DNA of 64,000 nt. It comes from Methanomicrobia archaeon (GTDB lineage Archaea; Methanobacteriota_B; Thermococci; Methanofastidiosales; NM3). Shown piece by piece: positions 32,566 through 45,347 of this stretch. The position numbers were made by a program, and so were the translations under genes. Below the pieces are notes generated by a model. That model saw only the letters and a program-made list of their open reading frames with translations, did not search any database and was not told the DNA's origin. Numbering within the stretch: the stretch's first letter is position 1; every line of letters starts with the position of its first letter. The DNA is taken from contig JAUVXU010000004.1 of the NCBI GenBank assembly GCA_030603445.1, positions 62,001 through 126,000 on the forward strand. Reading direction: 5' to 3'.

Positions 32566-33255
32566 ATGTATATGAAGAATCTAACATCTTACCAGGAAGA
32601 TATGATACGTGTTCTAGTCGAATCACGGGCACTGTCATTTGGCGAGTTCACACTTAAGAGCGGACGCATCTCACCATATTTTTTCAATATGGGAAGAGCA
32701 ATATCCAATGGGATGTATCTTGCGACCGTGTCGCGATGCTACTGCGAGAAGCTTATAGACTGCGTAGGCAATGATTTCACTTTCATCTTTGGTCCCGCAT
32801 ACAAGGGCATCCCGCTTGCATGCGCAATAGCGCACACTCTCTGGAGGGAGTTTGAAGTGGCTGTCAGGTGGGGATATGACAGAAAGGAGGAAAAGACATA
32901 TGGTGACACCCGCGATGCCGCACTTGTAGGGAAGCTTTGCAGCAAGGACAAGGTGATCATGGTGGATGATGTCATCACCACCGGCGACACCAAGATAGAG
33001 TCATGGAAAAAGCTTCTTGCGTTAGATAGTACATTAATCCCAAAAGGCGTTCTTGTTGCCGTTGATCGTGAGGAAAAGGACAAAAATGGCAAAATGCCAG
33101 TAAAAATACTAAAAGAAGCCGGGCTGGATTTTTTCTCCATACTAAAGGCTTCTGTTATCTTCGACTATTTGCACGATGTGAAAATAGACGGAAAGATCAT
33201 CGTGAACGATGACCTATACGAACGATACCAAGACTACAGGCGCCGCTACAATTAG
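32566..33255 (+). CDS. pyrE: orotate phosphoribosyltransferase
   Basis: 229 aa. Transfers the phosphoribosyl group of PRPP to orotate in pyrimidine synthesis. The PRPP site reads VIMVDDVITTGDTKIES; the N-terminal part has FGEFTLKSGRISPYFFNMG and FGPAYKGIPLACAIA, all typical for PyrE. The second ATG (32572) may be the true start of a leaderless message; no ribosome-binding site is seen. The stop overlaps the stop of the convergent glycosyltransferase by four bases. Confidence 0.93.
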   Translation: MYMKNLTSYQEDMIRVLVESRALSFGEFTLKSGRISPYFFNMGRAISNGMYLATVSRCYCEKLIDCVGNDFTFIFGPAYKGIPLACAIAHTLWREFEVAVRWGYDRKEEKTYGDTRDAALVGKLCSKDKVIMVDDVITTGDTKIESWKKLLALDSTLIPKGVLVAVDREEKDKNGKMPVKILKEAGLDFFSILKASVIFDYLHDVKIDGKIIVNDDLYERYQDYRRRYN

Positions 33256-34727
33256 AATCTAAAGACATCAAGTATTCCGTAAAGGAAGCTTACTATGCCT
33301 TGAGTACCCCCATTGATACGGTGCTGTATCACTGATGACACCTGGCCCCTCATAGTATCGATTGGCCATGTTACCTTCCATTCCTGGGGTTCTTTAAAGA
33401 CTGCTAGGTAACCTGACATCCTGAAGTAAAACACCAAGAGACGATACATTGGGAGTAGCAGCACATACTGGAAGCTATCGCTTATTGCGCCCCGCGTGTC
33501 CTTATCCGAGATAGTGTATGCTGCTAGTGTCTGTGCTACATCAAAAATCACATAAAACACGAACAGCACTACGAAAAACAGCGCTATTACGCTTTGTGAG
33601 TATCCAAATAGCGGGAATAGCAGCAATAGGAATGTCCATATGATACGAGGGAATGCAAGCGTATGGTCTATCATTAGCATCGAAGGAAGCCCAAACCTTC
33701 CAATAGTTCCATACTTATTAGAACCTATCATGTTCTTGTGTACGCCTGCGACCTCTAGTTGCCCCCGCCTCCAGCGTACGCGCTGGGCATATAAGGCCCC
33801 AGTTTCAATGACCGGTTCCACCCATACCTTTGCATCAGGGGCGAATCCGACCCCAATGCCATGCTGATGGAGATCAAGGGAGATGTCAAAATCCTCTGAC
33901 ACTGTTAGATCGGAGTAAATGTGCGTCTTCTCCAAGGCTTCTTTTCTAAACGCACTAAAAGCGCCTGAAAGCATATACTCCGAGTTCACGGCGCTTTGGT
34001 AATGGCGGCCAAGCCTAAATGAGTTCAAGTATTCAAGGAACTGGCTCTTTGCAAGAATAGATTCAAAAAACGACATCTTCTTCTCTATAGGGTTGCCGTC
34101 CTCATCCAAGATAAGGTCTCCTTCCTCATCGCGCGCCTCTAATAAGTGCCAGTTTACCTCTATAACACCGCATGCGGCCCCTTTATCGGGATTTTCCAGC
34201 AAGTATACGACCATTTTGCGAATTGCGTTTAAGTCAAGCACGACATCTGAGTCTATTGTCATTACTATATCGCCGTGCGCGTGGCGAATTCCCGTATTTA
34301 AGGCATGCGCCTTTCCCCTATTTGACCCATTGGAAAACAGGCGAATTGAACCTTTAAACTCTGATACTGACATGAAGTCGCCGTTGATCTTTACCTTGTT
34401 GTTGCCGTTGCCCTCTATGTTTGCAAGCGTTATGTCTGATGTAAGGTCTATTGAACCATCATCAACCACGAGTATCTCCATCTTGTGCTGCGGATAGTCT
34501 TGCAGCTTTAGGGAGTTGAGGCAGCGCTCAATTATCTTCTCCTCATTATAAGCAGGGATGATAATAGACACGTTTGGCATGTCGTCGTCTGTATATTTGT
34601 CAGTTGATGTCTTGTTCTTTGAGAATATCACGGCGCCTACCCTAAGCATTGCGCCAACACCATCAAGGGCAAGAGGTATGAGGATCCATACACCCCATAT
34701 CAAAAGCGAACGTATTAGAGGTGACAT
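33252..34727 (-). CDS. membrane glycosyltransferase family 2, processive type (exosortase-linked)
   Basis: 491 aa. An N-terminal membrane helix (residues 5-34) is followed by a GT2 catalytic domain: VSIIIPAYNEEKIIERCL, VVDDGS, MTIDSDVV (DxD), VSEDFDISL and the QxxRW motif in YAQRVRWRRGQLE, as in cellulose or hyaluronan synthases. Several C-terminal helices follow (about residues 345-440). It should make and export a polysaccharide at the membrane. It starts one base after the exosortase stop, as third gene of the substrate-exosortase-glycosyltransferase operon. Gram-positive XrtG exosortases also lie next to a GT2 gene. Confidence 0.88.
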   Translation of the reverse strand: MSPLIRSLLIWGVWILIPLALDGVGAMLRVGAVIFSKNKTSTDKYTDDDMPNVSIIIPAYNEEKIIERCLNSLKLQDYPQHKMEILVVDDGSIDLTSDITLANIEGNGNNKVKINGDFMSVSEFKGSIRLFSNGSNRGKAHALNTGIRHAHGDIVMTIDSDVVLDLNAIRKMVVYLLENPDKGAACGVIEVNWHLLEARDEEGDLILDEDGNPIEKKMSFFESILAKSQFLEYLNSFRLGRHYQSAVNSEYMLSGAFSAFRKEALEKTHIYSDLTVSEDFDISLDLHQHGIGVGFAPDAKVWVEPVIETGALYAQRVRWRRGQLEVAGVHKNMIGSNKYGTIGRFGLPSMLMIDHTLAFPRIIWTFLLLLFPLFGYSQSVIALFFVVLFVFYVIFDVAQTLAAYTISDKDTRGAISDSFQYVLLLPMYRLLVFYFRMSGYLAVFKEPQEWKVTWPIDTMRGQVSSVIQHRINGGTQGIVSFLYGILDVFRF

Positions 34728-35339
34728 TTATTCTCCCCCCTTTCCTCGGGCAATTGCATCATTTACCACTTTCTTGCCCACTATGTTAATAGTTGGTTTA
34801 GTTATTATATACCAATATATGAACAGGACGAACACGAAAAACACCATTCTAGATATCACAGAATGAGCCAGGTATGTGTACTCCTCTCCATAATTATGCG
34901 TGACACCAGCAATTATGCAAAGACGAATTATGTTTGCAACATACGTCAGTGCTACACCTAGCACTGCTGAAAAGACCTTCCTCTTGGCAACAAATCCCAC
35001 ATAGAAGAATATCAGCGAGAAGATAACGGAAAGCTCCAGAAGCGCCGAGCACTCTATAGAGCATATCAGCACAGCCCATCCTGTAGGTGATGGGATAAAT
35101 AGCTGATTGCTTTGGACATATCCATCAAATCCGAACTGTTGCAATAGGAAAACGGTGTGATTTAGCTCTATGTTGGCCAGTTTCGTATCATATCCTAAAT
35201 TCATAAAAGCAAGGATGATAAAAAGTGTGAGTCCAAATGATCCTACTAGGTAGTACAAAAGCCACTGCCTCTTTGAGTGAAGATATACAGTGACCAGCCC
35301 CCAAATAATCAGTAGTACAAACAGGAACATCCAGTTCAT
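34728..35339 (-). CDS. exosortase/archaeosortase family protein (XrtG-like)
   Basis: 203 aa with about six membrane helices. The three catalytic residues of the family are in place: Cys97 in SIECSALLE, Arg139 in YVANIIRLC and His159 in AHSVISRM. The ECSAxxE setting resembles XrtG-type enzymes. It should cut the C-terminal tripartite signal of a surface protein and join it to a lipid or glycan acceptor. The gene directly upstream encodes a protein with such a signal (ATGA overlap), and the one downstream encodes a glycosyltransferase. Confidence 0.85.
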   Translation of the reverse strand: MNWMFLFVLLIIWGLVTVYLHSKRQWLLYYLVGSFGLTLFIILAFMNLGYDTKLANIELNHTVFLLQQFGFDGYVQSNQLFIPSPTGWAVLICSIECSALLELSVIFSLIFFYVGFVAKRKVFSAVLGVALTYVANIIRLCIIAGVTHNYGEEYTYLAHSVISRMVFFVFVLFIYWYIITKPTINIVGKKVVNDAIARGKGGE

Positions 35340-36484
35340 TTGCCATCACATCCTTTTAGATTCAACACGCCATTCTTTCTCATGGAGTATCCTACTATTA
35401 ACAGCAGCATGGCCAATAGCCCGATAAATCCAAGCGTGCCTAGGGAAGGGATGTAGTAAAAAGAAGCACATGACGGTCCTGCGATTATATGTGAAGGCTC
35501 GCCTGAATTGACATTTGTCTTTTGCCAGTACACACAGACCCGAAAGTCCTTTCGTAGATCGTCAGGTGTAAGGTAGAACGAGAAGTACTCGGTTGTGGTA
35601 TCTCCTGGCTTCATAGTCTGTACGCCGACATTCTTGTACCTATGGTAAGGATATCCATCGTCGGTAGGATACGTTGCAACAAAATTGTTATTCTCATCAT
35701 ACACGTACAAGAACAGGCTGGTGTTTGACTGGGTGTTTGCCGCCGCCAGGTCGACGCGCACAGTAATTCCGCCTGTATCTGTGTTGACAGATACTGAAGT
35801 GAAGATGACGTCGCTTTGTGTGCCTGTTGCAAATGAGTAAGTAGGACTTGTGTAACTGCCTGTGCTATCTGTTGCAACAACGTACCATGAATATGTCGTA
35901 TTGCTCTCCAGATAGCTCCATACCGTAGTAGCGGTTCCACTGCCGGTCACGGTATCGGTGCCAATAGGTGTGTTGCCTTCCAAGTTGTAGAAGTTCACAG
36001 TGACAGTTCCTGTACCTCCTGCAATGTCTATACTAAGTGTAGTACTAGGCCCTATTCCAGAAACTCCCGATGGCGCGGGATTTGAAAAGTCTATGCCTGG
36101 GGCACGGGTTGTGAAAGACCAGGTACCACTCGTAAGAAGAACTGTATTTGGATCGGCGTTATCTGCTACTGTGACGTACCAGGAGTAAGAGGTTGAGGGG
36201 CTTCTTCCTGGCCACTGCACGGTCGCAACGTCTACTGAATTTTGCTTTGTGGTGACTACAGCAGAACCTAATAATGTTGATTCGCCATAAAATTTTACTA
36301 GATACTCCTTATTGTTAGCTCCATCCACTTCCACCACAAGATCCGGTGTTAAGCTGACATCTGTAGCACCATTTGCCGGTGATGGGTTCAAAACCTCAAC
36401 TGTTGGTACGGCCGCTACCATCGCAATCCCAAAAGATCCAAGTAACAAACCGACTATAATTATTACAAACACTTTATACTTCAC
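35336..36484 (-). CDS. secreted Ig-like surface protein, probable dedicated exosortase substrate
   Basis: 382 aa. A signal peptide (VFVIIIVGLLLGSFGIAMVAA) is followed by two Ig-like/fibronectin-like beta domains (about residues 28-130 and 131-220, each with the repeated form SYSWYV). A third beta domain contains TTEYFSFYLTPDDLRKDFRV. The C-terminus carries a sorting-like signal: IPSLGTLG, a membrane helix (GFIGLLAMLLLIVGY) and a basic stretch (SMRKNG), then a 10-residue tail. The IPSLG motif is similar to the IPTL-CTERM form. It is translationally coupled to the exosortase gene. Function beyond surface display is unknown. Confidence 0.78.
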   Translation of the reverse strand: MKYKVFVIIIVGLLLGSFGIAMVAAVPTVEVLNPSPANGATDVSLTPDLVVEVDGANNKEYLVKFYGESTLLGSAVVTTKQNSVDVATVQWPGRSPSTSYSWYVTVADNADPNTVLLTSGTWSFTTRAPGIDFSNPAPSGVSGIGPSTTLSIDIAGGTGTVTVNFYNLEGNTPIGTDTVTGSGTATTVWSYLESNTTYSWYVVATDSTGSYTSPTYSFATGTQSDVIFTSVSVNTDTGGITVRVDLAAANTQSNTSLFLYVYDENNNFVATYPTDDGYPYHRYKNVGVQTMKPGDTTTEYFSFYLTPDDLRKDFRVCVYWQKTNVNSGEPSHIIAGPSCASFYYIPSLGTLGFIGLLAMLLLIVGYSMRKNGVLNLKGCDGK

Positions 36485-38323: not shown

Positions 38324-39733
38324 TTACTTTCCAACGCCTTTCTTCTCCATCTTTCCCCATCCCCTAGAACCAAACGCATATTCTATTGTAGCACGAAAGC
38401 GCCACCATGTCTGTAATTGGCGATAACCGATATTTTCCAAAAAAGCGGCGCAAAAAAGGTGCAGGAGATGCGACGTCTTCGGGTATTTCTTAAATGACAG
38501 CTCCTCCAGTATAACAGATGTGATAGAAAGCACCATCCCGTAAAGAACTGCAACAGTCAGAAACATGATGGCAAAAGGCAAGCTAACAATACCAAACAAT
38601 GCTGACAAAATAAACACAATGTACCCGCTAAATTCGACAAACGGCCCGAGCATCTCAAATATCACAAAGTAGGGGAATGCAAAAAATCCCACCCAGCCAT
38701 AATCGGTGTTTAGGAACATATCTTTATGTAGCATTATTGATTGTATCGTTCCCTTCTGCCAACGAACGCGTTGGCTCCTAAGCACTTTCAACGTTTCTGG
38801 TGCCTCTGTCCAGCACACCGGATCTGGGACAAATGTGATGCGTGTATTTGGGTTTTGACGCCTGAGTATCTTATGCATCCTAACCACTAGTTCCATATCC
38901 TCCCCGATACAGCCTGCCCTATATCCGCCCACCTTCAGAACAGCATCTTTTGAGAAGCACCCAAACGCGCCGGAAATAATAAGCATGGCATTAACCGCAT
39001 CAAATCCTGTCCTGCCGAACAAAAATGCCCTGAGGTACTCCACGACCTGGAACTTTCCTATAAATTTTTTTGGTGGGGCAATTTCTAGTACTCTGCCCTG
39101 TTCCACTTTGCACCCATTTGCTATACGGACAATTCCTCCTACTGCAATGACATTTTCGTCCTCTACGAAAGGCCGGACCACCTTTAAAAGACAGTCGCGC
39201 TCGAGGATGGAATCCGCATCTATGACACATATCAATGGATCCTTAGATGCGTTTATGCCTGTGTTTATGGCATCTGCCTTTCCTCCATTCTCCTTATCTA
39301 TTACCAAAAGAGACGGATGCTCTTTTGATCTGTAAAATCCCCTCACAGGCATTGTATCAATACTATCCACCATGCCATACGGGACCCGCTTCATGGAGAA
39401 GTGGGATATTAAATTATTTAAGGTATCATCTTTTGAACCGTCGTTGACGACTATTACGTGAAAATCAGGGTACTCAAGCTGTAAAAAAGCGCTGGTGCTA
39501 TTAATTATGCTATTGCCTTCATTATATGCTGGCACTATAACAGAGACAGCTTTTGTATTTCCATAACGAAACAGGTCCTTTATATCTATGTAAGAGACCT
39601 TTGCCGAATATTTTCTTATTGTCTTAAATGAAACAAAGCATAGGACAAAATAAATCGTGCCTATTGTAAGCAGATATGTAAGCGCAAAATAATTGTAGAT
39701 GTATAAAGCTCCTATTATGCTTATATTAACCAC
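38324..39733 (-). CDS. processive membrane glycosyltransferase family 2 (stressosome operon)
   Basis: About 466-469 aa. Two N-terminal helices (residues 8-38) precede a GT2 domain: VSVIVPAYNEGNSI, VVNDGSKDD, VIDADSILE (DxD), GEDMELVVRMHKI and QxxRW in RSQRVRWQKGTIQ. Three or four C-terminal helices follow (residues 330-410). It resembles poly-N-acetylglucosamine or hyaluronan synthases, so it probably makes an exopolysaccharide; the sugar is not predictable. It is the last gene of the minus-strand unit that begins with RsbR and overlaps the HEAT gene stop. GTG 39733 lies in an AGGTGG ribosome-binding site; AUA 39724, five bases after it, is the better-placed start. Confidence 0.87.
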   Translation of the reverse strand: MVNISIIGALYIYNYFALTYLLTIGTIYFVLCFVSFKTIRKYSAKVSYIDIKDLFRYGNTKAVSVIVPAYNEGNSIINSTSAFLQLEYPDFHVIVVNDGSKDDTLNNLISHFSMKRVPYGMVDSIDTMPVRGFYRSKEHPSLLVIDKENGGKADAINTGINASKDPLICVIDADSILERDCLLKVVRPFVEDENVIAVGGIVRIANGCKVEQGRVLEIAPPKKFIGKFQVVEYLRAFLFGRTGFDAVNAMLIISGAFGCFSKDAVLKVGGYRAGCIGEDMELVVRMHKILRRQNPNTRITFVPDPVCWTEAPETLKVLRSQRVRWQKGTIQSIMLHKDMFLNTDYGWVGFFAFPYFVIFEMLGPFVEFSGYIVFILSALFGIVSLPFAIMFLTVAVLYGMVLSITSVILEELSFKKYPKTSHLLHLFCAAFLENIGYRQLQTWWRFRATIEYAFGSRGWGKMEKKGVGK

Positions 39734-40802
39734 CTACCTTCATGTCTGTGAGCAGGATTCTTGTAACAGAGGCCGCCTTTTTGTTCTTTGAATGTTGTGC
39801 AATTACTGAAAGTGCCTCCCTTCCTTTCCTTGACAAGCTAAACAGCGCCTCTGCTGCACGGTAGCGCACCCACCAGTTTTCGTCGCCAAGATATACTACA
39901 AGCTCTTCCTCTACTGAATCATCACCAATCCTTCCCAAGGCCCATATTGCAAGGCTGCGAACACGCCAGTCTGCATCATTCATGCATTCCCTTAAAGATG
40001 GCATGGCGCCCAAATACTCTATTTTACCCACGGCCCTTATACAATTAATGCGGACATCATACCCTGGTGTCGCATCCAGGATGCATAATATCTCCTCGCC
40101 TGCAGGATAGTATCTGTAGTGCCCTAGCGCGTCCACGATAAGTGAGATGGAAAACGCATCTGGCTCCCCTTTCAGATACCATAACAACGGCTGGCAAGCG
40201 TCAGTGCCAAACTCGAACAATATCGATAGCAAAAGATCCCTGCTTGGTTTTTTTCTGATGCGAAACTGCCCCAGGATTATTCCAAGCGTATCTATGGCCC
40301 CGATTTTCGCTAAGCTAAGGGCGCAGTTAAAATATACCCCTTCGTCCTTATCCTCCAAGCCCCGTATTAGGTGTTCTTTCGCCTGGCGGGCCCTTACCAA
40401 CCCGATAAAGAAAGCGGACTCGCTACGGACCTGTTCGTCTCCGTGTACAAGCTGATCTATTAAACATGAAAAAAGGTCTGTATTAGTGACTAGTGCAGAT
40501 AACTTCTCAAAATCATCTCCCTTCAGCGCGAGCAGATAGCTTTTCAAAAAGTGCTGGAAGTAAGCATAACGGGCCCTTGGAACGAGAGCCATGATCTCTT
40601 GGGTGGTTTTTTCACCTTCAAGGTACTGAAAAACCATCTTCTCCCATCCCGCGTAAAGCTTAAACTGCTTTTTTTTAGAACTGTTGCTTACGAATCGCAA
40701 GAAGAAGCAGTACAGTATCAACATCCCTACAACAAACAAGAGCGCAAGTACTGCCATTGTGGTGGTCCAAAGAGCCCCTTGATTGAAGAACTTCCCTATC
40801 AT
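39726..40802 (-). CDS. HEAT-repeat protein with N-terminal membrane anchor
   Basis: 358 aa. One membrane helix near the N-terminus (residues 13-36), a linker, then about six HEAT-like helical repeats (for example DEQVRSESAFFIGLVRA, DEGVYFNCALSLAKIG, DWRVRSLAIWALGRIG, NWWVRYRAAEALFSL). Such repeats bind other proteins. Lying between the receiver protein and the glycosyltransferase, and overlapping the latter, it may connect the signal to the synthase at the membrane. That role is inferred from gene order only. Confidence 0.8.
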   Translation of the reverse strand: MIGKFFNQGALWTTTMAVLALLFVVGMLILYCFFLRFVSNSSKKKQFKLYAGWEKMVFQYLEGEKTTQEIMALVPRARYAYFQHFLKSYLLALKGDDFEKLSALVTNTDLFSCLIDQLVHGDEQVRSESAFFIGLVRARQAKEHLIRGLEDKDEGVYFNCALSLAKIGAIDTLGIILGQFRIRKKPSRDLLLSILFEFGTDACQPLLWYLKGEPDAFSISLIVDALGHYRYYPAGEEILCILDATPGYDVRINCIRAVGKIEYLGAMPSLRECMNDADWRVRSLAIWALGRIGDDSVEEELVVYLGDENWWVRYRAAEALFSLSRKGREALSVIAQHSKNKKAASVTRILLTDMKVGG

Positions 40803-40839
40803 TTTACCCCTTCTTTAGCGATTATTTGTTCTTGAAAAT

Positions 40840-41238
40840 TTACTGCAAAAACTGCCATGAGATAGCCTTATTCACTCTTGCCACCAGTTCAGAAGGGGCG
40901 AATGGTTTTGTCAAGTAGTCTGTTGCCCCATCCCCCAAGCCTTTCACGACGTCGCTCTCCTGGCCCTTGGCAGAAAGTATTATTGTGGGAATAGATACTG
41001 TTTTTGGATTTGCCCTTATATCCCTTAAAATACTGATGCCATCTCGCAAAGGCATCATTACATCTAACAAAACGATGTCTGGGATCGTCTCAATGATAGC
41101 CTCTATAACACCCTCCCCATCAGGGAAGTGGGTGACCTTAAATTCCTCCCGTTCCAGCTTGAATTTGACCAAACGAGCAATATCCAGGTCATCTTCTGCA
41201 TAGATTATCGTCTTTTGTACCTTATTACCTTTGCTCAT
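40840..41238 (-). CDS. single-domain response regulator (receiver)
   Basis: 132 aa CheY-like receiver without an output domain. Acidic pocket AEDD (residues 14-17), phosphoacceptor Asp59 in VLLDVMMP, the conserved residue near LSAK and Lys111 in YLTKPF. It is likely phosphorylated by the histidine kinase encoded just upstream (gap 56 bases), with output through protein contact, perhaps with the HEAT protein. AAGGAG supports the ATG start. Confidence 0.92.
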   Translation of the reverse strand: MSKGNKVQKTIIYAEDDLDIARLVKFKLEREEFKVTHFPDGEGVIEAIIETIPDIVLLDVMMPLRDGISILRDIRANPKTVSIPTIILSAKGQESDVVKGLGDGATDYLTKPFAPSELVARVNKAISWQFLQ

Positions 41239-41294
41239 GATATATTCTCCTTGAATTGAGTAGATTATAAACTTTTTCTTGTTTAATGATATTA

Positions 41295-42524
41295 TTATTC
41301 ATTTTTCATGTTTGGACGCCCTAGTGGCAACCTAATTGTGAATTTTGAACCTTTCTCAAATTCGCTACTAACATCTATTGTTCCGTTGTGTGCAGCGACT
41401 ATCTCTTTTACAATAGCTAAGCCAAGGCCTGTTCCCCCTGCATCCCTGACGACCTTGTTGTCTGCACGGAAAAACTTTGAAAAAAGCTTTTTCTGGTCAC
41501 TTTCGCTCATGCCAACACCAGTATCCTCCAAAGATATGATTGCGTTATCCCCTTCTGTATCAAGAATCAGATATATGGAACCTGACTCGGTGTACTTAAT
41601 AGAATTTGTAAACAGATTCCATAGAACCTGACTTATTCTATCTCCATCGACCCACGCCAGTATATCGGGCTTGATGTTCTTGTGAAAGGCAAGCCCTTTC
41701 TTCTTGATAAGCAGTTCTGTTCCCTTTGCAGTTGCCTCAACTATTTCTGAAAGTGATATATGTGTCAAATTCATAGTAAGCCTTTTTGACTCCATCTTTT
41801 GAACATCTAAGAACTCATTTATGAGTGATGCAAGTCTATCGGTGTTTCTCTTGACTATTCCTAAAAAATCACGTTGTATATCGTTTATTTCCCCTGTATC
41901 CTCATCCAGGATAATATCGATATAACCCTTAATAGACGTCAACGGCGTCCTGAGCTCATGGGAAACTGTCGAAACAAGATCGGACTTTATCTTGTCCACG
42001 CTCTTTAGCTCCTCAAGCATTATATCGATCTTTGCCTTTTCGTTTTTTAGGTCATCAAATAATGCCAACAGTTCGTCATTTTTTCTCTTAAGCTCACTTA
42101 CCATCTCTGCTCTTGATAAACGAATTAACCTTTCCCTCTCCAAGGATATGAATTCCTCGGTTGGGATGAATTTTACTGGGGGATACTTAAAAGCATTGAC
42201 ATTTAGCATATTTCCATTAGTACTAGATATGAAAATATCATCAAAAAACGCCTCTGTCCATTTTATATCCGGATCCTCTGTGCGGCCTTTAAACAAAATA
42301 TCTAGTCCAAAGCCCTTTTCCCTCTCATCAAAGCCAACTGCAACGCTTGCTGCATTGCCGTTAGAGTACATTTGGCGGCTTAATTCAGAAGTTGCTGTAG
42401 CAAGCTTTGTGGCACCGATTGTGTCAAATCCCACATCCTCTGCCAACATGCGGACCTTGTTCCTGGCCTCAACGATAGAAGAAGCCTCTTTGATAGAGAT
42501 CTCTCCAAGATGCATCTTGTTCAT
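41295..42524 (-). CDS. RsbT-like ATPase domain fused to histidine kinase
   Basis: 409 aa. Residues 10-110 resemble the RsbT/anti-sigma kinase fold (VEARNKVRMLAEDVGFDTIGATKLATATSELSR), without the later nucleotide-binding boxes. A coiled coil (130-180) precedes the HisKA helix with His189 (VSTVSHELRTPLTS). The HATPase domain follows: NLFTNSIKYTE, LEDTGVGMSE, AGGTGLGLAIVKEI. The fusion places a stressosome-type domain in front of a two-component kinase, a likely link between the Rsb genes and the receiver protein. It overlaps the RsbX-like gene by four bases. Confidence 0.88.
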   Translation of the reverse strand: MNKMHLGEISIKEASSIVEARNKVRMLAEDVGFDTIGATKLATATSELSRQMYSNGNAASVAVGFDEREKGFGLDILFKGRTEDPDIKWTEAFFDDIFISSTNGNMLNVNAFKYPPVKFIPTEEFISLERERLIRLSRAEMVSELKRKNDELLALFDDLKNEKAKIDIMLEELKSVDKIKSDLVSTVSHELRTPLTSIKGYIDIILDEDTGEINDIQRDFLGIVKRNTDRLASLINEFLDVQKMESKRLTMNLTHISLSEIVEATAKGTELLIKKKGLAFHKNIKPDILAWVDGDRISQVLWNLFTNSIKYTESGSIYLILDTEGDNAIISLEDTGVGMSESDQKKLFSKFFRADNKVVRDAGGTGLGLAIVKEIVAAHNGTIDVSSEFEKGSKFTIRLPLGRPNMKNE

Positions 42525-43066
42525 CTATATCTCACCGCCATGCAAGCCGCGTCATCGCTCTTCTTTCCAAACATGTGAATTATTTTCTTAGCCATGGTCT
42601 TGGCGTCGTCTGTTAAAATCTCCGGATAGTCTCCCAGTTCGAAATGCTCCTTTACACCATCCGTATACAGCACGACAACATCTGCGCGAGAAAACGGCCT
42701 TTCCATCGCCTTTAATGTTGGAAGAACGTACCCAACAACGCCAGGCAGTGATATAAACCTCATAGTGTCTGGGCCAAACACCCTTGCAGTTATATTGCCT
42801 ACTCCAACGTATCTTAGCTCCATTAATTGCAAATCAAGAAGACACAATCCTACAACTGCCCCTCTAGAACCTCTTATCTCCTCATGCAATCCCCTCATTA
42901 TCTTGATAATGTCTTTTTGATGGTTCTCATCCAGATACTCTTTGCATGTGATTGCGATTTCGTGTGCTTTTTTTCCATGTCCAAGCACATCGACTAGCCC
43001 CATGAACACTTTTTTGTCAAACGCCTTGATAACTCCGATGTCTCCACATTCGCTATCCTTTATCAA
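42521..43066 (-). CDS. rsbX: RsbX-like PP2C/SpoIIE-type phosphatase
   Basis: Small Mn-dependent serine phosphatase of the RsbX group. Visible: GDIGVIKAF, VDVLGHGKKAHEIA (metal ligand Asp), RGAVVGLCLLDLQLMELRYVGVGNI, LPGVVGYVLPTLKA, VVLYTDGVKEHF and KSDDAACMAVRYR. In bacteria RsbX resets RsbR and RsbS by removing phosphates. The listed start is TTG 43066. In-frame DNA before it encodes family-like residues (FYIATRP) but has no ATG, GTG or TTG; AUU at 43081 is a possible start, with a poorly spaced ribosome-binding site. It lies between the RsbT and kinase genes. Confidence 0.86.
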   Translation of the reverse strand: MIKDSECGDIGVIKAFDKKVFMGLVDVLGHGKKAHEIAITCKEYLDENHQKDIIKIMRGLHEEIRGSRGAVVGLCLLDLQLMELRYVGVGNITARVFGPDTMRFISLPGVVGYVLPTLKAMERPFSRADVVVLYTDGVKEHFELGDYPEILTDDAKTMAKKIIHMFGKKSDDAACMAVRYR

Positions 43067-43106
43067 GGGCCTTGTGGCAATATAAAAATCAGATGTACCG
43101 TTTTTC

Positions 43107-43487
43107 CTACAACCACCGCCTCACTGTAATCTTCGTGCCTTTTGTCCTGGATGGGTCCATCAAGAATTCGTGCATCAGGCGCTTTATTCCTGGCAGACCA
43201 ACGCCTAGTCCTTTGGATGTGCTATAATTCTCTTTTAGCGCAAGATTTATGTCTTTTATTCCTGGGCCGTTGTCCTCTGCAACAACTTCAATACCTTTTT
43301 TTCCCCTCTTTATAATAGGCTTTAGGATAAGTTCTCCTTCTCCCGCATAACGGACTATATTTGTTCCAAGCTCGGAAACGGCAGTTGATATCATGCACTG
43401 CTCATTTGGTTTGAATCCAATGGACTTTGCAATTATCCTTGATTCCATGATCGTTTTTGAAACATCTACTATGCTTCGTACACTAAT
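43107..43487 (-). CDS. rsbT: RsbT-like serine kinase (switch kinase)
   Basis: GHKL-type kinase that in bacteria phosphorylates RsbS and RsbR and then leaves the stressosome. Visible: VSKTIMESRIIAKSIGFKPNEQ, ISTAVSELGTNIVRYAGEGEL (N box), VVAEDNGPGI (G1) and STSKGLGVGLPGIKRLMHEF (G2). With AUU 43487 as start the protein has 126 aa, close to the 133 of Bacillus RsbT; GGAG lies six bases before it. In-frame ATGs exist only inside the rsbS tail (43580, 43565, 43550) and would add a basic, non-family extension. The AUU overlaps the rsbS stop. Confidence 0.88.
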   Translation of the reverse strand: MSVRSIVDVSKTIMESRIIAKSIGFKPNEQCMISTAVSELGTNIVRYAGEGELILKPIIKRGKKGIEVVAEDNGPGIKDINLALKENYSTSKGLGVGLPGIKRLMHEFLMDPSRTKGTKITVRRWL

Positions 43488-43953
43488 CCTCTTCTCCGCT
43501 AGCTTCTTCTCCGCTATCAGGCTCGCCCTCCTGCTCCTCTTCAAGATCATCTTCAGGCAACTCATCAAAATTCTCGACAAGCTCTGTTGCCGGAGCTACC
43601 TTCTGAATGCCGTCTTCAACTGTTGTAGATATGAGGATATCTTCAAAATCGATTCCTAGGTCTACGATGGATGCTACCACCTCCGGCCTGAACCCCGTAA
43701 TTACTGTCTTTGCACCTAACAAGGATGCCATCCTTGCAGTGTCAAAAGCAGTTTTGCACAAAAAAGAGTCCATTACTGTAACACCGGAAAAATCTATTAC
43801 AACGCCCTTCACATCTGTTGCTTCTATCCTCTTCAAAATCTCCTTTTGGATATGCAACATTGCCTCATCGTAAAGCTCAATCTGGATAGGAACTATGAGG
43901 CATCCGCTTGTGATATGCATTTCCACGTTAAACAGGGTATTTTCATCATCCAT
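43483..43953 (-). CDS. rsbS: RsbS-like STAS domain protein with acidic tail
   Basis: 156 aa. STAS domain at residues 8-115: CLIVPIQIELYDEAMLHIQKEIL, VVIDFSGVTVMDSF with Ser56 at the position of the phosphorylated serine of Bacillus RsbS, and ASLLGAKTVITGFRPEVVASIVDLGIDF. The extra C-terminal tail of about 32 residues is strongly acidic (EDDLEEEQEGEPDSGEEASGEED) and not usual for RsbS. The gene follows the RsbR-like gene by 22 bases. Confidence 0.9.
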   Translation of the reverse strand: MDDENTLFNVEMHITSGCLIVPIQIELYDEAMLHIQKEILKRIEATDVKGVVIDFSGVTVMDSFLCKTAFDTARMASLLGAKTVITGFRPEVVASIVDLGIDFEDILISTTVEDGIQKVAPATELVENFDELPEDDLEEEQEGEPDSGEEASGEED

Positions 43954-43975
43954 GAAACAATGGCTCCCTTGAATA

Positions 43976-44788
43976 TCACTTGCCTTTTCTTGATATGTCC
44001 TTGTCTTCTTTTACAGCAAGCCCCAATTCTTCAAACGAGAGCAGCAAAGCATCCTTTAAAGTCGTTGCAGTGTTTAACCCGGAAAAATCAATTCCAAGAT
44101 GCACTATTGTCTGAGCTATCTCTGATGACATGCCGGATAGTATGCAATCTGCACCTACGAGTTTGGTTGCTTTAGTTATCTTTATTATATGATTTGCCAC
44201 AGCCGTGTCTACACTTGCTACACCAGATATGTCCAGTATGCACATCTTTGACTCAGTCTCGGTGATCTTTTTTAAACAGGCTTCCATGACATTTTGTGCA
44301 CGTACTGAATCTATTATCCCGACAAGAGGCAGCATTATTATGTTTTCCCAAACTGTTATGACTGGTGTTGACATCTCTGACATTGCCTGTATTTGCGCTG
44401 ATATGGTATCTTCGTTTCTTTTTACATATTCATCAACTATGCAAAAATTTAATTCAAAGATCAGCTCGCTCATTGCTACTGCTTCTTTAATTAAAACATC
44501 GCGGTCCTGATCTAATAATCCCTCGTCAAGGATAGCGACAATAGCATGTTTTAGCTCAAAGATGCAAGATGCTGTTTGTGAAGGCGTAAACCCACCCTGA
44601 ATGTATGAGATTGCTATTTCTTTGACAGCCTCAATGAGTGGCTCATACTCCGGGTGATCAATAGTATCCAGATTCCCAACGGAAATGGCTTGTAATAGTT
44701 TCTGTAGAAGATTTGCAGCATTATCCCTAAACTCCTCCCTGTTAATATTTTCCGTAGGGATTTTCTTGTTTTCAGCCACATTCTTCAT
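43976..44788 (-). CDS. rsbR: RsbR-like stressosome protein (main frame)
   Basis: 270 aa visible in this frame. The N-terminal half is an all-helical sensor domain of the RsbR non-haem globin kind. The C-terminal STAS domain (residues 140-250) contains ISEM-like STPVITVWENIIMLPLVGIIDSVRAQ, ILDISGVASVDTAVANHI with Ser188 at the first RsbR phosphosite position, and DCILSGMSSEIAQTIVHLGIDF. The frame remains open upstream and encodes NELLDLW, matching the RsbR N-terminus (NELLQLW in Bacillus RsbRA), but has no start codon there. A likely N-terminus is encoded in another frame at 44811-44874, joined across an A8 run. Confidence 0.9.
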   Translation of the reverse strand: MKNVAENKKIPTENINREEFRDNAANLLQKLLQAISVGNLDTIDHPEYEPLIEAVKEIAISYIQGGFTPSQTASCIFELKHAIVAILDEGLLDQDRDVLIKEAVAMSELIFELNFCIVDEYVKRNEDTISAQIQAMSEMSTPVITVWENIIMLPLVGIIDSVRAQNVMEACLKKITETESKMCILDISGVASVDTAVANHIIKITKATKLVGADCILSGMSSEIAQTIVHLGIDFSGLNTATTLKDALLLSFEELGLAVKEDKDISRKGK

Positions 44789-44874
44789 CCAAAGATCCAG
44801 AAGTTCATTCTTTTTTTTGTAAGAATCCCTGGTGCAATGTGTTTTTCAGATTTTACAACATCTTTACCTTTCAT
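44786..44874 (-). other. out-of-frame N-terminus of rsbR joined by a slippery A8 run
   Basis: ATG 44874, preceded by AAGGGA, opens a short frame (MKGKDVVKSEKHIAPGIL...) that stops after the A8 run at 44811-44818. A -1 slip on A-AAA-AAA, or one A lost from the assembly, joins it to the rsbR frame and gives a protein of about 299 aa. Confidence 0.6.
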
Positions 44875-45041: not shown

Positions 45042-45347
45042 CTAGGATGAAGCAAGAAAATTATATATCATACCATAATACTTCATGATTGCCCCCTCAT
45101 CGGGGGGTGTGTCTTTTATAGAAAAAATCTTTTGCGTATAATCTGCAGGACAGTCCGAATATGGGACAAAACTGTCTTTTGTGTATAACGCGTCATCCGA
45201 ATAATCTATAAATGGCATCTTTGGATTTCCAAGCAACTCAACAGAGGACTCTGCATCTATATCCAAAGCTTTTGCTGTCCCAATAAATACAAAATATAAG
45301 CAAAGAAACACTATTGCCATCTTAACTGTCATCCTTACTGCTGCCAT
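45042..45347 (-). CDS. small secreted protein of unknown function
   Basis: 101 aa. A signal peptide (VKMAIVFLCLYFVFIGTAKA) and a short mature part of about 75 residues rich in Asp and Tyr with a single Cys. No family recognised. It has its own AT-rich upstream region and sits between the stressosome operon and the homocysteine cluster on the same strand. Start is uncertain: ATG 45347, or a later in-frame ATG preceded by AAGG. Confidence 0.5.
   Translation of the reverse strand: MAAVRMTVKMAIVFLCLYFVFIGTAKALDIDAESSVELLGNPKMPFIDYSDDALYTKDSFVPYSDCPADYTQKIFSIKDTPPDEGAIMKYYGMIYNFLASS

Follow-up and report, generated by a model that had tools for sequence, protein, structure and literature searches.

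A Vibrio-type stressosome module joined to a receiver-HEAT-glycosyltransferase cassette in an archaeon of the order Methanofastidiosales

The DNA analysed here, referred to as the window, is a stretch of 64,000 nucleotides from contig JAUVXU010000004.1 of the Methanomicrobia archaeon genome GCA_030603445.1 (Methanofastidiosales). Its minus strand carries between positions 38324 and 44874 eight genes, whose products are identified by Pfam profiles as RsbR, RsbS, RsbT, RsbX, a histidine kinase (HK), a receiver protein (REC), a HEAT-repeat protein and a family 2 glycosyltransferase (GT2). In our reading, the upstream genes form an RSTX stressosome module of the Vibrio type, the downstream ones belong to a widespread REC-HEAT-GT2 cassette, and the soluble HK would serve as coupler between them. 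It appears fairly probable that signals run from the stressosome via the cytosolic HK to the REC and further to the membrane-anchored HEAT protein and the GT2 polysaccharide synthase, a proposed wiring which does not involve transcription. Since REC-HEAT-GT2 and HEAT-GT2 loci elsewhere are devoid of rsb genes and other archaeal stressosome loci of HEAT or GT2 genes, as judged from the loci examined, two independent units are joined at this site. Archaeal stressosomes and kinase/receiver outputs of RSTX modules are already known, and the join with REC-HEAT-GT2 is the new part. Gene content and order, motifs, the conservation of both halves, the phylogenetic placement of the stressosome module and the predicted fold of the coupling domain are read directly from the data presented below.

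Gene content and organization of the locus

The Pfam matches along the locus are RsbRD_N plus STAS, STAS, HATPase, SpoIIE/PP2C, HisKA plus HATPase_c, Response_reg, HEAT repeats and GT2 (Table 1). The intergenic distances from rsbR to the GT2 gene amount to 22 bases, an overlap, 40, -4, 56, 37 and -8 bases, which makes it likely that the eight genes form a single operon. Coordinates, profiles and gap measurements agree with the first-pass annotation of this DNA, which had described eight tightly spaced genes on one strand at this position, and profiles and motifs also confirm the complete RsbRST-X set, the ATP boxes of RsbT, His189 of the kinase and Asp59 of the receiver listed there. Except for RsbR and the doubtful 5' end of RsbX, every frame is open with its catalytic motifs intact.

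Table 1. Features of the stressosome-glycosyltransferase locus (positions in the window)
Feature	Coordinates	Strand	Remarks
RsbR-like co-antagonist, RsbRD_N sensor-type domain plus STAS	43976..44874	-	open frame 43976-44788
RsbS-like STAS scaffold, conserved Ser63	43483..43953	-	STAS 48 bits, MDS-F motif
RsbT-like switch kinase, complete ATP boxes	43107..43550	-	start uncertain, open frame to 43580
RsbX-like single-domain PP2C (SpoIIE) phosphatase	42521..43066	-	5' end uncertain, to about 43117
Cytosolic HK, 409 aa	41295..42524	-	degenerate RsbT fold ~1-115, helical linker 122-164, HisKA (His189), HATPase_c
Single-domain receiver, Asp59 (Lys111 also in place)	40840..41238	-	Response_reg profile
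Membrane-anchored HEAT-repeat protein	39726..40802	-	one N-terminal hydrophobic segment; repeats presumed cytosolic
Membrane GT2 synthase	38324..39733	-	processive-type motifs D98, DAD172-174, GED277-279, QRVRW321-325

The features expected of an RsbRST module are all present in the sequences, namely an RsbR with a sensor-type and a STAS domain, an RsbS consisting of a single STAS domain with its serine, and an RsbT with N, G1 and G2 boxes (SELGTN, EDNGPG and GLGVGL). The STAS domain of RsbR scores 55 bits and carries a serine at the first and a threonine at the second site, which are residues 161 and 195 in the open frame or 190 and 224 in a longer frame described below. The first-pass annotation had numbered the serine of RsbR 188, and the phosphosite of RsbS given there as Ser56 is Ser63. 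No Pfam match to protoglobin was obtained for the window RsbR, which contains RsbRD_N instead. A profile of RsbR relatives, including the window protein, matches the stressosome structures of Vibrio vulnificus (7o0i, 2.8e-69) and Listeria (7b0u, 2.2e-46), and RsbT alone gave no match among solved structures at 0.01 (phmmer). The metal-site motifs of RsbX are present as well. RsbS ends in a long acidic tail (43483-43590, minus strand), which overlaps with the start of rsbT and is missing in most relatives.

The RsbR gene was previously treated as intact from position 44874. As sequenced, the frame starting from ATG 44874 meets a stop, and the open frame begins only at 44788; the earlier reading had passed through a run of eight A (44811-44818), in which one base is missing. 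Reading through this run raises the RsbRD_N score from 43.8 bits (profile positions 22-103) to 63.8 bits (positions 4-103). A similar case is RsbX, whose conserved ATRP-like N terminus is located upstream of the first possible start codon and beside a run of five A (43101-43105). Together with the apparent lack of the module in related genomes, the one-base break and the doubtful 5' end of RsbX might indicate a recently acquired module in decay, with a real frameshift in RsbR and a non-working stressosome. We regard this as very improbable. The remaining frames and their catalytic motifs show no damage, each doubtful site falls on an A run, where errors of sequencing or consensus are to be expected, and translation could restart at ATG 44788. 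Both breaks look like sequence errors, albeit not proven ones.

The receiver-HEAT-synthase cassette

The output half of the locus fits a pattern of three adjacent genes found in many other genomes, consisting of a receiver, an N-terminally anchored HEAT protein and a GT2 in this order. Directly upstream of the GT2, 28 of 28 bacterial and archaeal loci examined, relatives of the window organism counted, encode a HEAT protein anchored by an N-terminal hydrophobic segment (L028-L032, L109-L114, L129-L142, L018, L036 and L037). The HEAT-GT2 pair spans Bacillota, Bacteroidota, Deinococcota, Pseudomonadota, haloarchaea and the order of the window organism, and is often accompanied by a gene for a receiver, a TPR protein or a YaiO-type barrel. 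Of 14 haloarchaeal genomes, 13 have the receiver directly before HEAT-GT2, and it also precedes the HEAT gene, at times separated from it by a TPR or barrel gene, in Erythrobacter, Mesorhizobium, Devosia, Haloarcula, Salinirubellus, Halosolutus and Emticicia. The cassettes of haloarchaea, Alphaproteobacteria and others share with the window the gene order, the N-terminal anchor of the HEAT protein and a GT2 of about 40% identity, but differ from it in that other kinases are in control and no stressosome is encoded nearby; at several HEAT-GT2 loci, a kinase gene follows just downstream of the GT2 on the same strand. As no description of the HEAT-GT2 pair, haloarchaea included, was found in the open-licence literature, REC-HEAT-GT2 apparently represents a recurrent cassette not previously described.

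The synthase itself matches the BcsA cellulose synthase core, and its D, DxD, (T/G)ED and QxxRW motifs are invariant across 29 aligned relatives. Relatives with about 40% identity are encoded on plasmids from haloarchaea and several bacterial phyla, in four genomes of the same order and in 14 of the 392 genomes sampled from another archaeal phylum. A viral scan with the GT2 gave no match. The best NCBIfam match is PgaC/IcaA (TIGR03937), with which the enzyme shares the GT2 fold and motifs, but the score of 144 bits falls well short of the curated cut-off (422 bits), which rules out an assignment as PgaC poly-GlcNAc synthase; unlike PgaC/IcaA, the window enzyme is also devoid of a PgaD, deacetylase or PilZ partner. 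The cassette of Halosolutus is followed by glmS and a sugar-nucleotide gene, neighbours which hint at an amino sugar. The GT2 tree, with supports of 43-67 at its deep nodes, gave no source for the window synthase; the HEAT-GT2 pairs of related genomes form a group of their own with a support of 98, and the synthase is not part of it. Two haloarchaeal loci (L133 and L134) contain GT2 open frames more than twice as long (>1000 aa), suggesting either an extra fused domain or, given the GC-rich DNA, a frame that is too long.

The conservation of the cassette bears on a different view of the output, according to which stressosome and HK act on the REC, but the REC passes the signal elsewhere, to another protein or as a diffusible phospho-signal, with HEAT-GT2 being a neighbouring unit that is only co-expressed. 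Single-domain receivers can have distant partners, and HEAT-GT2 pairs without REC occur in a genome of the same genus (G001), Bacteroides, Planococcus, Paenibacillus and D. radiophilus. This view is nevertheless unlikely in the light of the REC gene located just upstream of HEAT-GT2 in the haloarchaeal genomes mentioned above and in several bacteria, given that the chance of finding a same-strand REC within 700 bases is well below 1% per locus by a rough estimate.

The histidine kinase as candidate coupler

The first-pass annotation had recognized the HK as a fusion of an RsbT-like domain with a histidine kinase. The fusion with an RsbT-type fold is retained on the basis of a predicted model, but the RsbT-like half is degenerate and lacks the GPG and GLGxGL (G1, G2) ATP boxes; His189 and the G1 and G2 boxes of the catalytic part are in place. 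Because of the missing boxes, the N-terminal half probably serves as an adaptor, and a working second RsbT is ruled out. Residues 1-165 gave no Pfam match, RsbU_N included; the kinase of the archaeal L009 module matches RsbU_N at 1.2e-13. The protein is devoid of a membrane segment and of PAS or GAF sensors, and since no sensor domain is matched by Pfam, the N-terminal domain is the likely input. Its predicted model (pLDDT 85, pTM 0.77) best matches RsbW (6m37; Z 14.0 over 105 residues, 1.9 A) and SpoIIAB, with Z values of 12-14 versus about 7 for kinase catalytic domains, pointing to a GHKL fold of the RsbW/SpoIIAB (anti-sigma/RsbT) type.

Similar arrangements are known from other kinases adjacent to stressosome genes. 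The kinase following rsbX in the Planctomycetaceae genome UBA6894 (L005) has a homologous N terminus (29% identity over 148 aa, 7e-13), which also lacks the ATP boxes, while those of Deinococcus and proteobacteria start with an intact RsbT-like domain; the boxes are kept in the corresponding domains of Deinococcus, Paraburkholderia and the archaeal L072. The respective stretch of the Vibrio kinase aligns weakly to the window HK, with significance over the linker only. RST modules paired with kinases whose N terminus is either RsbT-like or RsbU_N are found repeatedly in both bacteria and archaea. RsbT of Bacillus subtilis exerts its effect on RsbU by bringing order into the linker of the latter, and the same has been proposed for kinases with RsbU_N (PMC12143880). 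An RsbT fold carried by the kinase itself would solve this task in a different manner.

We infer all phosphotransfers and contacts of the following scheme, as well as the signal and the polymer. RsbR and RsbS would form the core, with the N-terminal domain of RsbR sensing a signal which lets RsbT phosphorylate Ser63 of RsbS as well as RsbR; RsbT would then leave the core, and RsbX would reset it. Given the lack of a membrane segment or PAS/GAF domains and the linkage of a degenerate RsbT fold to HisKA, the N-terminal domain of the HK would most likely either sit on the core at the RsbT sites or bind the freed RsbT, and the helical linker would set autophosphorylation at His189. The phosphate would pass from His189 to Asp59 of the receiver, which would act on the membrane-anchored HEAT protein, and the latter would gate the GT2 polysaccharide synthase. 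The output would be post-translational, as no DNA-binding family was matched by any of the eight proteins. The phosphotransfer to polysaccharide synthesis proposed earlier is therefore backed as to its GT2 output by the conservation of REC-HEAT-GT2 elsewhere, but the transfers themselves remain conjectural.

Several points weigh against this chain of events. RsbR is frame-broken as sequenced, and the model of the HK domain was built on four sequences, two of which are true RsbTs, possibly biasing it toward that fold. The contact between RsbT and the coupler is proposed by analogy with the RsbU_N kinases (PMC12143880), and binding of RsbT to VvD1 was not detected in V. vulnificus (PMC9237108). 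No second instance of the order R-S-T-X-HK-REC-HEAT-GT2 turned up among the genomes and loci searched, which leaves the join of the two halves without comparative support. Finally, the G001 genome of the same genus contains HEAT-GT2 without REC, as do relatives of the same order, indicating that REC is not indispensable to HEAT-GT2.

The undetected binding of VvRsbT to VvD1 would also fit an HK signalled independently of the stressosome, with a ligand or a further STAS protein as partner of its degenerate RsbT domain and a different target served by rsbRSTX. The partners of RsbT are not predictable by sequence, and the window HK lacks RsbU_N. Such an arrangement seems rather improbable, though, considering the overlap of rsbX and the HK gene by four bases, the lack of any other STAS protein in the genome and the recurrence of the RST-kinase pairs described above.

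If the proposed chain from stressosome to synthase holds, a stressosome would act on a surface polymer without transcription in an archaeon without sigma factor, and a stress signal may directly switch on a surface coat, the work being done by a modular receiver-HEAT-synthase unit common to many bacteria and haloarchaea. The question of how stressosomes without RsbU reach their kinases would find a testable answer in an RsbT fold built into the kinase. More tentatively, REC-HEAT-GT2 might be regarded as a widespread class of phosphorelay-gated synthases with interchangeable inputs, provided here by the stressosome via a dead RsbT fold, and such dead or intact domains may link stressosome and kinase in many RSTX modules without RsbU_N, those of the Vibrio type included. 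The REC-HEAT-GT2 cassette would be testable in culturable haloarchaea.

Archaeal stressosomes and the origin of the module

The source genome (1.62 Mb) is 96% complete with 0.02% contamination and contains only two STAS domains, those of RsbR and RsbS. It shares its domain with G394, from a phylum some of whose genomes cluster with named haloarchaea in the GT2 tree, and is therefore archaeal. It gave no match to Sigma70_r2, which is matched in 10 of 14 control genomes. Neither an RsbV nor a sigma factor is therefore available for the classical route, in accordance with the first-pass annotation, which had excluded a sigma factor as target. Compared to the SigB pathway of B. subtilis, RsbR, RsbS, RsbT and RsbX are shared, but RsbU, RsbV, RsbW and the sigma factor are missing from the genome. 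The archaeal 16S model had no match in the source genome, which prevented a placement by rRNA. A near-DNA plasmid search gave no match either.

The closest modules are bacterial, which could be taken to indicate a bacterial contaminant or an assembly chimera. However, the module is flanked on a contig of 127 kb by PurB (77% identical in a genome of the same family) and a DUF39/methanogenesis-marker-16-like protein (70% identical in one of the same genus), and its GC content of 0.40-0.44 matches the surroundings. Flanks of the same archaeal lineage, steady GC and the low contamination make this explanation extremely improbable and support the archaeal location, for which a chimera with a bacterium had been named as the critical objection. 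The flanking genes are non-contiguous in relatives, so an empty site cannot be read.

Stressosome genes have been reported from bacteria and archaea (PMC8942246), rsbRSTX being present in "even some archaeal species" and bacterial modules being able to feed kinase-receiver relays (PMC9237108). Among 392 genomes of another archaeal phylum, RsbR-type STAS proteins occur in 31 genomes of 22 genera, and rsbR, rsbS and rsbT are adjacent in 28 genomes whose loci were read. These counts and reports do not agree with the rarity implied by the earlier annotation, and the 28 genomes rule out that the stressosome is unique to the window organism among archaea. Many of the archaeal rsbR-S-T loci go on to encode RsbX and a kinase, the latter often bearing RsbU_N, and one (L084) has the order R-S-T-X-HK-REC. 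A single-sequence RsbT scan of the collection returned one locus, a low yield reflecting the limit of the pattern search and no sign of rarity. RsbT was not found at E 1e-5 in any of the 114 further genomes of the phylum, two of which (89% and 77% complete) belong to the genus of the window organism.

In a tree of RsbR-STAS, RsbS and RsbT, the window module, the planctomycete L005, Vibrio L099 and Flammeovirga L100 are split from all others with a support of 100. The other archaeal modules are located on the far side, with L072 inside a bacterial group. This placement and the failure to find the module in relatives suggest that it was probably acquired from bacteria, as far as the limited sampling allows. 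With 46% identity, L005 is the closest R+S+T sequence; it has the order RsbR-S-T-X-HK followed by REC-PP2C, and its kinase shares the degenerate RsbT N terminus, but it differs in its protoglobin-type reading, a hybrid kinase with own receivers and a receiver-PP2C phosphatase output. The RSTX stressosome of V. vulnificus (VvRsbR-S-T-X, VvD1, VvD2; 7o0i), which has a two-component output, shares the R-S-T-X order, and a related Vibrio locus is among the modules grouped with that of the window. As in the Vibrio type, a single-domain RsbX directly follows RsbT, the HK comes next, and there is no RsbU, RsbV, RsbW or sigma factor. In contrast to V. vulnificus, the window RsbR contains RsbRD_N and not protoglobin, the output is REC-HEAT-GT2 and not cyclic-di-GMP or another regulator, and the host is an archaeon. 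Halobacteriota modules (e.g. L009, L069-L097) resemble that of the window in their complete rsbR-S-T set, usually with rsbX and often with a kinase, but form a separate group in the tree, usually have kinases with RsbU_N and are not accompanied by HEAT or GT2 genes.

Some of the other modules show features of their own. The R+S+T sequences of L072 (genome G438) nest in the Deinococcus/proteobacterial group, and its kinase of 1253 aa has an RsbT-like N terminus; this module likely represents another transfer. In the archaeal modules L009, L076 and L081-L083, rsbX is preceded by two RsbT-like genes in a row; the second of these may code for an anti-sigma-like partner or an adaptor. The archaeal genome G401 harbors two paralogous stressosome modules (L095 and L096), and a kinase of about 1600 residues is encoded behind each of them. 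A plasmid of Deinococcus psychrotolerans (L107/L034) carries a stressosome-kinase-diguanylate cyclase module near the alginate acetylation genes AlgF and MBOAT, which is possibly another link between stressosome and polysaccharide. In the window, a small putative secreted protein of 101 aa without family match is encoded upstream of rsbR (45042-45347, minus strand). A neighbouring second GT2 cluster (33252-36484, minus strand) codes for an XrtG-type glycosyltransferase (TIGR03111, 274 bits, below cut-off), an exosortase/archaeosortase-family protein (TIGR04178, above cut-off) and a secreted protein with an anchor-like C-terminal segment.

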